Shown: positions 25,758 through 30,821 of the stretch, one piece after another | Layout: the number at the start of each line of letters is the position of its first letter | How positions within the stretch are numbered: the first letter of the stretch is position 1 | DNA from: Atopobium fossor DSM 15642 | GTDB taxonomy: Bacteria; Actinomycetota; Coriobacteriia; Coriobacteriales; Atopobiaceae | Assembly (NCBI RefSeq): GCF_000483125.1 | Contig: NZ_AXXR01000004.1 | Span: 62,001 to 126,000, forward strand | Direction of reading: 5' to 3' | Length of the DNA stretch: 64,000 nt | The notes under the pieces: model-generated | Seen by the model: only the letters and a program-made list of their open reading frames with translations | Databases searched by the model: none | Told to the model about the DNA's origin: nothing | Translations under genes and position numbers: made by a program

Positions 25758-26933
25758 CTATGCCTCAAAAGTTATGCTGCATACTATGCCGTTTTTATTA
25801 TTTGCTGCGGTAAGATGCCAACCATGCATTTCTATAATTTGTCGTGCAAGCGCAAGACCTATCCCTGTTCCGCCAGGTGTCTTGCTTGAATAAAAACGAT
25901 CAAACATATGAGCGAGTTCATCTTGTGACAGGGGCATACAGTCATTGGAAATGCGTAGCTTGTGATTTGTGAGCTGTATAACAATTTGTGAGCTGCTGTG
26001 ATCAATAGCATTGCGCATGAGATTAGAAAGCGCATGTTCAAGCTGGTGTTTGTCTCCCAAAACCTCAATATGAGCAAGTTCTAAATGAAGGGAAAGCTGA
26101 TGTGCTTTAATACTACCTTCTTGTGGCAAAAGGCAATCCTGTATAAGTTCATCAAGATACACTCGCTCTTTTTTGAGCTGTATAGCTCCACTTTCTAACC
26201 GACTTATATTAAGAATCTGAGTTATTTCCTGCGATATTTTTTGGGTCTGCTGGACAATAAGACCTCCTATTCGAGTGGGATTGTCCATGAGCCCTAACTG
26301 GAGGCCTTCACCGTATCCAGCAATAGAGGCAAGAGGTGTCTTAAGTTCGTGAGACATATTCTCATAAAAGCTTTTTACTGCGAGTTCACGCTGTTCGATT
26401 TGGCGTCCCGTATAGAATGCTGCGGCTCCCGCTGCACTGGTACCAACCAGTATGATAAGCATGAACAGGCTATTTATGGATGAGATAAGTTCTTGCTCAC
26501 CTGTTATATCTACGTAGGCGACAACTACATCGCTACTGTGTGCATCCGGAATATACTGCGCATAAAAGTTAAGTTTTGATGTATCAATATACGTGAGCTG
26601 TGCGCTTGCGGGATTTTGTGCGTACCAATGTGCAATGGCTTTATCTGCGGCTGTATAGAGTGCTTCCGGTTCTTGAGGAAGTTTAAAATCGTGTGTAAGA
26701 TGCAACAGCACGGCAACACGTTCAGTTGAAAAATCATCCTGATCATCATCTATGCGAAGAGCTTCCTGAATAGCACGCTGAGCTTCTGAATGTATGCGCT
26801 GATAAACAACAGCATTGTAAATTGTTGTCATAGTTCCTAAAACAAGAAGCATACATAGAGTGCTGACTAGAGCGAATCTCCAGCTAGGACGTTTGATTTG
26901 TGTGAAAATATGAGAGAGAATTTTATGGCTCAC
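25758..26933 (-). CDS. Sensor histidine kinase
   Basis: 391 residues: TM1 (LVSTLCMLLVLGTMTTIY), an extracytoplasmic domain of about 110 residues, TM2 (LFMLIILVGTSAAGAAAFY), HisKA with H195 in MSHELKTPLASIAG, and an HATPase with N-box NLMRNAIDHS, a degenerate G1 box and GGTGIGLALARQI. No HAMP domain is evident between TM2 and the His box. The ATG overlaps the response-regulator stop by 4 nt. Probable signal: something extracytoplasmic. The neighbouring secreted protein gene is a candidate target. Confidence 0.92.
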   Translation of the reverse strand: MSHKILSHIFTQIKRPSWRFALVSTLCMLLVLGTMTTIYNAVVYQRIHSEAQRAIQEALRIDDDQDDFSTERVAVLLHLTHDFKLPQEPEALYTAADKAIAHWYAQNPASAQLTYIDTSKLNFYAQYIPDAHSSDVVVAYVDITGEQELISSINSLFMLIILVGTSAAGAAAFYTGRQIEQRELAVKSFYENMSHELKTPLASIAGYGEGLQLGLMDNPTRIGGLIVQQTQKISQEITQILNISRLESGAIQLKKERVYLDELIQDCLLPQEGSIKAHQLSLHLELAHIEVLGDKHQLEHALSNLMRNAIDHSSSQIVIQLTNHKLRISNDCMPLSQDELAHMFDRFYSSKTPGGTGIGLALARQIIEMHGWHLTAANNKNGIVCSITFEA

Positions 26934-27643
26934 GCGTCATCTCCCGCTTCAAGACGGTACCCAAATCCCCAAATTGCCTTGATTGAGCTTGTGCTTTGTG
27001 CTTGCTGAAGTTTAATACGTACCCGTCGTATTGTTTCATCGCATACACGTGTTTCCACCTGCGCATCAATGCCCCAAACATCATGTAAGAGTTGTGTGCG
27101 TGATACAGCCTGTGGAAATGCTGCCATAAGTGCACGCAGAAGAGCAAATTCTGTAAGGCTCAAAGAAACCGCAGTATTCTTAGCATAAACACTATGATCT
27201 TGCTCTGTAAGCCTAAGATCACAAGCGCGGTAACTTCCTACAGTTTGTAAGCTAGCCTGTGTTGTCATCTCAACGCGTCTAAGAAGTGCACGCACGCGCA
27301 TAACAAGCATGGAGGGAGAGAATGGCTTAAAGAGGTAGTCATCTCCGCCAAGAGCAAGTCCAACTATGTAGTCTTCTTCAGATTCTTTTGCAGTAAGAAT
27401 AATGATAGGAACTTCAGAAATTGTGCGCAGCTCTTTACAAACACTAAGGCCGTCGGTACCTGGCATCATTACATCAAGAATAATAAGGTCACATGGTTCT
27501 TTTTTGAACTGTGCAAGGAGATCGTCTCCTGTAGTAAAGCACCTCGTGAGATACCCAGCTCCCTCAAGAAAGGTTTTCTCAACGCTCAAAAGATTGCAGT
27601 CATCATCGGCTATATAAATGAGCTGATGAGTGTCTGGATTCAT
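26930..27643 (-). CDS. OmpR-family response regulator
   Basis: 237 residues. The receiver has acidic pocket ADDD, Asp57 in LIILDVMMP, Thr in ILTAK and Lys in FKPF. The winged-helix output domain ends IWGFGYRLE. It is transcribed before its kinase. OmpR-type regulators often bind as tandem dimers to direct repeats with an 11-bp step, and exactly such an array lies upstream of the neighbouring secreted protein gene. Confidence 0.93.
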   Translation of the reverse strand: MNPDTHQLIYIADDDCNLLSVEKTFLEGAGYLTRCFTTGDDLLAQFKKEPCDLIILDVMMPGTDGLSVCKELRTISEVPIIILTAKESEEDYIVGLALGGDDYLFKPFSPSMLVMRVRALLRRVEMTTQASLQTVGSYRACDLRLTEQDHSVYAKNTAVSLSLTEFALLRALMAAFPQAVSRTQLLHDVWGIDAQVETRVCDETIRRVRIKLQQAQSTSSIKAIWGFGYRLEAGDDA

Positions 27644-27776: not shown

Positions 27777-27814
27777 ACGGTCCGCAGCCCATCTTTTTGT
27801 GGGTTGCGGACCGT
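27777..27814. terminator. Strong hairpin downstream of the secreted-protein gene
   Basis: Fifteen-bp stem ACGGTCCGCAGCCCA/TGGGTTGCGGACCGT with one G-T pair. No long T run follows on the minus strand, so it may act as an RNA-stabilising stem or a weak terminator between the secreted-protein gene and the response regulator. Confidence 0.6.
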
Positions 27815-27837: not shown

Positions 27838-28299
27838 CTAGCTTGCGCACATGCCATTCTCGCACGTACCAGTTGAACCTACAACGTCTGTAGCATTCGC
27901 GCTGTTTGCATATGCTTTTTGTTCGAGCTCTTCTATACGCTCAAATCCTTGCGCGTCTATGCCCTCCTCAGAGTATTCTTTCATGTACAAGGACTTAAGT
28001 TCTGCCTTCTCCTGATCCGTTAACGCGCTCATTGTCAAAACGTCTTGTTCAATTTCTTCTTGGGTGGGCAGCCTATCTTGTTCGGCTTCTTTGATGTCGG
28101 CGCTTGGATCTAGCTGATCTTCGCAATCGAAGTGCGTGTCATCTATTACTTCAATTTGAATGTCCTGATTGCTGGCTGTATGGTCCTGAGCCGAATTAGG
28201 TGCAGCAAACGCTACCGCAGGTAGGGTGAGTGCTCCCATAAGGCTCATTGCACACAGTGTTGCGCCAATCATGCGCTGGGTGGATGTCTTCTTGTCCAT
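27838..28299 (-). CDS. Small secreted acidic protein with C-terminal Cys pair
   Basis: 153 residues with a clear Sec signal peptide (basic start, hydrophobic MIGATLCAMSLMGALTLPAV, cleavage after AVAFA). The mature part is strongly acidic and probably helical. It ends TGTCENGMCAS, giving Cys-x4-Cys five residues before the end, with one more Cys in the middle (FDCEDQ). AAGGAG precedes the ATG. No known family is recognised. It lies next to a two-component system in the same orientation, with ordered repeats in its promoter. It could be a signal, an inhibitor or an envelope sensor partner; all of these are inference. Confidence 0.75.
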   Translation of the reverse strand: MDKKTSTQRMIGATLCAMSLMGALTLPAVAFAAPNSAQDHTASNQDIQIEVIDDTHFDCEDQLDPSADIKEAEQDRLPTQEEIEQDVLTMSALTDQEKAELKSLYMKEYSEEGIDAQGFERIEELEQKAYANSANATDVVGSTGTCENGMCAS

Positions 28300-28379
28300 C
28301 TTTAATCTCCTTTGTTCCTAGTAGGTGTTGGACAAAAAGAGCATATGAGAAGCTAAGGGGGTAAATCTCCCTTCAAACT

Positions 28380-28412
28380 GTCAAAGTTTTGTCACAGTTT
28401 TGTGACACTTTT
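28380..28412 (-). promoter_or_regulatory. Triple 11-bp direct repeat, probable response-regulator site
   Basis: Three consecutive 11-bp units, GTCAAAGTTTT, GTCACAGTTTT and GTGACACTTTT, start at 28380, 28391 and 28402. The middle also forms GTCACA-GTTT-TGTGAC. It lies 81-113 nt upstream of the secreted-protein start. The step matches OmpR/PhoB-type binding sites. Confidence 0.6.
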
Positions 28413-28430: not shown

Positions 28431-28470
28431 TGAGATTTTATGTAATCTTATGACACTTTATGCCAGATTA
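28431..28470. repeat. Four 10-bp phased units TGnnnnnTTA
   Basis: TGAGATTTTA, TGTAATCTTA, TGACACTTTA and TGCCAGATTA follow each other without gaps. Every unit starts TG and ends TTA. The last unit overlaps the 19-bp repeat that begins at 28461. Confidence 0.55.
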
Positions 28471-28507
28471 GATATTTCTTTGCGAGTTAAAAACAAAGCG
28501 TTTATCA
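28461..28507. repeat. Direct repeat copy A (distal border of AT-rich island)
   Basis: The first 19 bp (TGCCAGATTAGATATTTCT, 28461-28479) are identical to 30654-30672, and weaker similarity runs on to AAAGCG. On the minus strand the following bases form GCGTTTA/TAAACGC and a T-rich tail, so this copy also looks like a terminator, as copy B does. Confidence 0.7.
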
Positions 28508-28579
28508 GCTTAAACGCTGATAGCTAATAACGACTAAATGACCATCAATATATCTTTTTCAAAGAAACAAAAAAATGTA

Positions 28580-28615
28580 TTGACCTGTCCATTGGGAACA
28601 ATGTCATCTTTTAAT
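28580..28615 (+). promoter_or_regulatory. MerR-type promoter with dyad
   Basis: TTGACC at 28580 is followed by an imperfect dyad, TGACcTGTCC around ATTG and GGAACAatGTCA, placed where the -35/-10 spacer should be. The best -10 candidate (CATCTT) leaves a 19-bp spacer, typical of promoters twisted open by MerR-family activators. Probably autoregulation. Confidence 0.45.
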
Positions 28616-28631
28616 TAGGGAGGTGGCAATC

Positions 28632-30653: not shown

Positions 30654-30701
30654 TGCCAGATTAGATATTTCTCAGCAAGCTAAAATAAAGCGTCTACCAG
30701 C
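30654..30701. repeat. Direct repeat copy B (tRNA-Ser-proximal border)
   Basis: 19 bp identical to 28461-28479, then roughly 70% similarity to AAAGCGTCTACCAGC. It includes the T-rich tail of the tRNA-Ser terminator. Together with copy A it brackets 2.2 kb. Confidence 0.7.
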
Positions 30702-30720
30702 AAAAATACTGATAGACGCT
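30680..30720 (-). terminator. Intrinsic terminator of tRNA-Ser
   Basis: On the minus strand, GCGTCTATCAG/CTGGTAGACGC (one mismatch) encloses a T-rich loop and is followed by TTTATTTT. Confidence 0.85.
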
Positions 30721-30730
30721 CATACTGTTC

Positions 30731-30821
30731 TGGCGGAGAGTTGGGGATTCGAACCCCAGATAGGATTTGGTCCTATACTCGCTTAGCAGGCGAGCACCTT
30801 CAGCCTCTCGGTCAACTCTCC
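30731..30821 (-). tRNA. tRNA-Ser (anticodon GCT)
   Basis: Class II tRNA on the minus strand. Acceptor GGAGAGT/ACTCTCC, anticodon stem CTCGC/GCGAG with loop CTGCTAA, long variable arm, T-arm GGGGTTCGAATCCCC, discriminator G and encoded CCA. Its 3' side faces the repeat-bracketed island. Confidence 0.95.

Follow-up and report, generated by a model that had tools for sequence, protein, structure and literature searches.

Upstream of a gene for a small secreted protein in Atopobium fossor, a member of the Coriobacteriales, three short direct repeats follow one another at a period of 11 bp, and the question raised by this locus is which factor reads them. The original prediction pointed to an OmpR-type regulator encoded next to the secreted-protein gene. 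Here we follow that proposal through the window, by which we mean the whole 64 kb stretch of DNA that was analysed, and through the genomes of relatives.

The locus and its repeat array

On the minus strand the secreted-protein gene comes first, followed by the regulator gene and then by the kinase gene. The relevant features are these:

28380-28412, no strand assigned: array of three 11-bp direct repeats (sequence reading, period-11 scoring and shuffles)
27838-28299, minus strand: small secreted protein of 153 aa (signal peptide by eye; predicted helical hairpin)
27777-27814, minus strand: strong RNA hairpin between the secreted and regulator genes (z -4.55; no clear U run)
26930-27643, minus strand: OmpR/PhoB-type response regulator (Pfam PF00072 and PF00486, Response_reg and Trans_reg_C)
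25758-26933, minus strand: sensor histidine kinase (Pfam HisKA and HATPase_c)

The Response_reg and Trans_reg_C domains confirm that an OmpR-type regulator is the neighbour of the secreted-protein gene, and no minus-strand open reading frame of at least 60 aa lies between the two. For the secreted protein, Pfam returns no family at E<=1, LTXXQ included, and no cysteine lipobox is seen by eye. Its structural model (mean pLDDT 58.8) is reliable only near helices 80-88, 95-108 and 116-139; a structure search with this model gave no CpxP or Spy row and middling helical matches only, a result with no weight against such a fold.

The three repeats are present as first described, reading GTCAAAGTTTT GTCACAGTTTT GTGACACTTTT, and they do lie 81-113 nt upstream of the secreted gene's minus-strand ATG at 28299. 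With 27/33 pairwise matches, the array is the highest-scoring period-11 triple of the 64 kb window, and at periods of 8-10 and 12-14 no triple in the window equals that score. First-order Markov shuffles of the window gave top triples of 19-24, with 0/200 reaching 27; when the AT-rich 321 nt surrounding the array were shuffled instead, 27 was reached in 3/20000. A general repeat finder recovered a family made up of the first two array copies only (28379-28400), and the window has a single TGTCA-N6-TGTCA, at 28379 on the plus strand.

On the far side of the array a MerR-type gene at 28623 diverges from the secreted gene. The array was considered as the plus-strand promoter of this gene and rejected, since reading by eye showed no promoter element there that is both conserved and in register. 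The stretch at 28580-28603, ahead of the MerR-type gene, has TTGACC and after it the dyad CATTG-GGAA-CAATG, and so resembles the promoter of a MerR-type gene that regulates itself. A 62-bp stretch beside the array (28461-28523) is repeated with 81% identity about 2.2 kb away at 30654-30715, close to where a minus-strand tRNA-Ser gene (30731-30821) has its 3' end. The AT-rich MerR-type gene lies between the two copies, an arrangement that may be the remnant of an inserted element.

A promoter layout shared among relatives

Ten promoters were aligned: that of the window, those of the secreted genes of five relatives, two from thioredoxin-like lipoprotein genes and two from clostripain-like peptidase genes. 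The rows align nearly gap-free and have a common layout, in which three half-sites at 11-bp spacing are followed by a -35 that is weak and GATTT-like and, 16-17 bp further on, by a -10, the array ending upstream of the -35 position. In the window the elements are as follows:

28401-28407, minus strand: half-site 1 (distal), TGTCACA on the gene's strand (10-row alignment)
28390-28396, minus strand: half-site 2, TGTGACA on the gene's strand (10-row alignment)
28379-28385, minus strand: half-site 3 (proximal), TTTGACA on the gene's strand (10-row alignment)
28363-28368, minus strand: weak -35-like element AGATTT (G41, A42 and T44 invariant in 10/10 rows; presumed role)
28340-28345, minus strand: -10-like element TATGCT, 17 bp after the -35-like element (conservation; presumed role)

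Within the half-sites, T14, T25, C6, C17 and C28 (window numbering) are invariant and T3 is kept in 9/10 rows, with a period of 11; in the -10-like element, TAnnCT-like across the rows, T63, A64 and T68 are invariant in 10/10 rows and C67 is kept in 9/10. The array copy of one relative (G026) is degenerate and has one extra base. The direct repeats of the original prediction are thereby seen to be conserved, while its units need redrawing, the conserved half-sites on the gene's strand being TGTCACA, TGTGACA and TTTGACA. A consensus promoter scan detected no promoter before the secreted gene, so the assignment of the -35 and -10 draws on conservation. Because AGATTT is far from TTGACA, it suggests a promoter that would need an activator. 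If transcription began some 7 bases past the -10, the three half-sites would have their centres at about -72, -61 and -50.

Nested in the array there is indeed a palindrome, of which the length first given was too short: it is a perfect 7-4-7 dyad, TGTCACA-GTTT-TGTGACA, at 28390-28407, and the 1.65 Mb genome holds no second exact copy. A perfect dyad that is unique in the genome, beside a divergent MerR-type gene, could be taken to mean that another dyad-binding regulator, either a one-component repressor or the product of that gene, uses the 18-bp TGTCACA-N4-TGTGACA as its operator. Across the aligned promoters, however, the dyad is exact in one and near-exact in one more (G026), the direct repeat being kept in the others, and the presence of the site across genomes tracks the two-component pair (see below). 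We consider such an operator quite unlikely. Missing from 8/10 of the promoters, the palindrome was rejected in that role, and given how rarely it is retained it looks like a by-product of the variant carried by the first half-site.

Occurrence of the site and the genes behind it

The family sample comprised 140 genomes, a kinase-positive genome being one with the kinase at E<=1e-40. The kinase is held by 15/140 and is absent, at this threshold, from the two other genomes of the window's genus. Regulator and kinase are adjacent in 13 fetched loci besides that of the window. A secreted protein of the same kind is encoded ahead of the regulator in five loci (L024 and L025 by BLAST; L034, L035 and L036 by motif and position), where the arrays begin about 110-130 nt before the gene in the register seen in the window, the copy in L024 being degenerate; in L032 the array precedes a clostripain-like gene that is itself ahead of the regulator. 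Conservation of the repeats before orthologues, the check proposed at the outset, was thus run and came out in favour of the prediction: same-register arrays precede the secreted gene in relatives that have it, and where a genome carries this regulator the array also stands upstream of further genes for exported proteins. As in systems of the OmpR/PhoB type, for which direct half-sites 10-11 bp apart are expected, a receiver is joined to a winged-helix Trans_reg_C domain, and conserved direct half-sites at 11-bp spacing stand upstream of the promoter before orthologues. In two further genomes (G091 and G094; loci L081 and L082) an array and a clostripain-like gene lie directly behind the kinase gene, not before the regulator.

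An IUPAC pattern for two units, TGACANTTTTNTGACANTTTT, derived from the arrays known at that point and allowed one mismatch, found 8 sites in 8/140 genomes, five of them the source arrays and three new (G093, G102, G104), while the reversed-pattern control found 0. The window's spacers are A-rich on the gene's strand and those of most relatives T-rich, so that the pair pattern matches the window on the opposite strand. A looser pattern was tried in the window's own genome and dropped, with 8 matches versus 12 for the control.

Broader coverage came from R1, a sequence-only profile of the ten promoters run in Infernal, whose filters were set more strictly for the 140 genomes; E<=1e-4 was taken as strong. 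At that threshold R1 gave 27 sites in 20/140 genomes. A strong site is present in 15/15 kinase-positive genomes versus 5/125 kinase-negative ones, an association with a Fisher value of 2.8e-16 overall and of 3.5e-8 once the ten training-row genomes are removed; all six kinase-positive genomes that contributed no training row have a strong site. A regulator profile search covered 11/140 genomes. Among those with a site and no kinase, G097 has the regulator whole and G099 has it in two pieces, on the site's own contig, whereas the incomplete assemblies of G003, G104 and G149 (73, 86 and 76% complete) have the site and no regulator orthologue, the G003 contig stopping 82 bases beyond the secreted-gene match. 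The regulator in G099 (L183) appears split into several frames.

In the window's own genome, R1 at E<=0.1 found the array alone, on both strands, with one partial match at 0.12, and the secreted gene is the only strong target of that search. When the window row was left out of the alignment, the resulting model (R2) still had the window site as its top match in that genome, though at only 18.9 bits (E 0.0016); next came a partial match to the other strand of the same site (16.5 bits). At E<=1, R1 has matches in 43/140 genomes, of which those from 1e-4 to 0.005 are mixed. The genes behind such weak matches were checked in G030, G142, G004, G100:C41 and G028:C16, with G035 left out: G030 and G142 are without a clear exported gene downstream, while a thioredoxin-like lipoprotein follows in G100:C41 and an Asp/Tyr-rich protein in G028:C16. 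In G004 (L098) a short Tat-type open reading frame with a weaker array upstream (E 0.001) is followed by a more distant regulator of this type, perhaps as part of a diverged sister system. The secreted protein was also sought in viral contigs, where five pattern matches included no relative.

All 27 strong sites precede a gene with a signal peptide or lipoprotein signal, as judged by eye. Nine of these genes encode secreted hairpin proteins and ten clostripain-like peptidases, the rest being three thioredoxin-like lipoproteins and five Asp/Tyr-rich proteins, one of which (G095:C160) lies on a fetched stretch that ends before its C-terminus. Pfam was applied to two of the targets, a clostripain (PF03415, E 8.7e-35) and a thioredoxin-like protein; the others were grouped by eye on the sequence they have in common. 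A profile of the hairpin built from six secreted proteins scores 20.5-26.5 bits on the three Asp/Tyr-rich proteins examined and at most 8.7 in 700 shuffles, a difference from which the two groups seem to share a domain.

Beyond the family, a regulator scan of genome contigs was followed through its best 80 loci, among which the closest Bacillota regulators (L102-L115 and L132) have 43-52% identity and mostly an adjacent kinase. A secreted protein is encoded ahead of the regulator in L102, L103, L104, L112 and L114. Over 21 loci, R1 matched L103 (3.3e-7), L102 (8.7e-6) and L104 (0.0043), together with a partial match in L105 that falls behind the kinase gene (0.021) and, in L101, the known G095 site; the other 16/21 gave no match, L112 and L114 among them, and in 65 other loci of the scan (640,998 bases) R1 had no match at E<=5. 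In L112 and L114 repeats can be seen by eye at the right place, with period-11 scores of 20 and 22 of 33. Those scores are 24 in L102 and 22 in L104, against 13-20 in loci without an evident array (L105-L109, L111, L115 and L132), so score alone fails to single out the Bacillota arrays. Taken together, R1 matches and period-11 scores leave conservation of the predicted site outside the family well supported at two loci and suggestive at one.

The Bacillota secreted proteins were also tried as homologues of the window protein and rejected as such: L114 scores 3.6 bits on the hairpin profile, below the best shuffles (8.7), and, with four of the five proteins tried, L103, L104 and L112 are not among the matches listed. 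We therefore call them positional counterparts. The kinase region of L114 (Streptococcus sp. HF-1907) appears split into several frames. The window protein ends in TGTCENGMCAS (27838-27873) and its L103 counterpart in NTGCESGICPL (1577-1609), with a terminal Cys-x4-Cys in common; the motif occurs in a predicted regulon that also includes thioredoxin-like lipoproteins.

Known systems and a proposed circuit

The E. coli pho box, for instance before phoA, is described as TGTCA-N6-TGTCA with 11-bp spacing (PMC10294691), and the array has the same half-site and spacing on the plus strand. Coupled with an OmpR/PhoB-type DNA-binding domain that matches PhoB at E 2.3e-10, this likeness could make the array a true pho box and place the secreted gene in the phosphate (PhoB) regulon. 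We regard this as highly unlikely. The genome has a separate pst-phoU operon adjoined by its own regulator and kinase, the regulator at 26930-27643 scores 177.9 bits versus a PhoB equivalog cut-off of 296.2, and the targets are exported proteins, with a phosphate gene directly after 0/27 strong sites. Unlike the pho box as described in that source, moreover, the window's TGTCA lies on the strand opposite the gene, a third half-site is present and the array ends upstream of the -35. The other regulator at pst-phoU and the 27 sites devoid of phosphate genes point to a sister system with a similar reading head. That the palindrome and a T run form a weak plus-strand transcription terminator is scarcely credible: a terminator scan lists the palindrome, but the stem has 3 G-C pairs, the scan gives 3 sites in the region versus 2.0 expected, no listed plus-strand open reading frame of at least 60 aa ends just before it, and the dyad is not conserved.

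Two systems offer closer parallels for the gene arrangement. In SaePQRS of Staphylococcus aureus an accessory exported-protein gene is described ahead of the regulator and kinase genes, the regulator binds GTTAA-N6-GTTAA direct half-sites at 11-bp spacing, many targets are exported, and the accessory proteins induce phosphatase activity of the kinase (PMC5083920). The window likewise has an exported-protein gene upstream of regulator and kinase and direct repeats in its promoter. Its half-sites, in contrast, are TGTGACA/TTTGACA rather than GTTAA, three of them in one array, and against the lipoprotein SaeP and membrane protein SaeQ of that account it shows no visible lipobox and no saeQ-like gene. 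In E. coli, CpxP is a small exported protein described as encoded with the CpxRA two-component system (PMC4160245) and reported to be under its control (PMC4817254). The small exported protein of the window, encoded with a two-component system, resembles CpxP by analogy; unlike CpxP, it has neither LTXXQ nor another Pfam match at E<=1, and its host belongs to the Coriobacteriales and is not Gram-negative.

Since the three repeats and the weak promoter recur together before exported-protein genes in relatives that bear the regulator, the array is very probably (roughly 85%) the operator of the regulator at 26930-27643, which, when phosphorylated, would bind three half-sites and activate the secreted gene. 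The kinase at 25758-26933 would phosphorylate the regulator, copies of which would then occupy the three adjacent pho-box-like half-sites immediately before a promoter with a -35 that appears too weak alone. Binding would switch the secreted-protein gene on, activation rather than repression being what we infer. Within this explanation, the same operator-promoter before exported-protein genes makes the site set a predicted envelope/secretome regulon in relatives. Feedback by the secreted protein on the kinase, like that exerted by CpxP or SaeP, is a conjecture from analogy, albeit a reasonable guess. More tentatively, and with odds that we put somewhat below even, the system may represent an undescribed two-component regulon of the envelope-stress type in Coriobacteriales and Bacillota, read through three reversed pho-box-like half-sites, in which the secreted protein would act as a feedback or sensing subunit of the kinase and a Gram-positive counterpart of CpxP/SaeP.

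In the open-licence PMC literature we found no operator description of this kind in Coriobacteriales. What began as a visual repeat becomes a defined operator-promoter assigned, at the strength given above, to one regulator and its kinase, with exported proteins of Coriobacteriales as the predicted regulon. The secreted protein, which belongs to no family listed in Pfam, would thereby gain its first regulatory context, and its possible feedback role is made testable.
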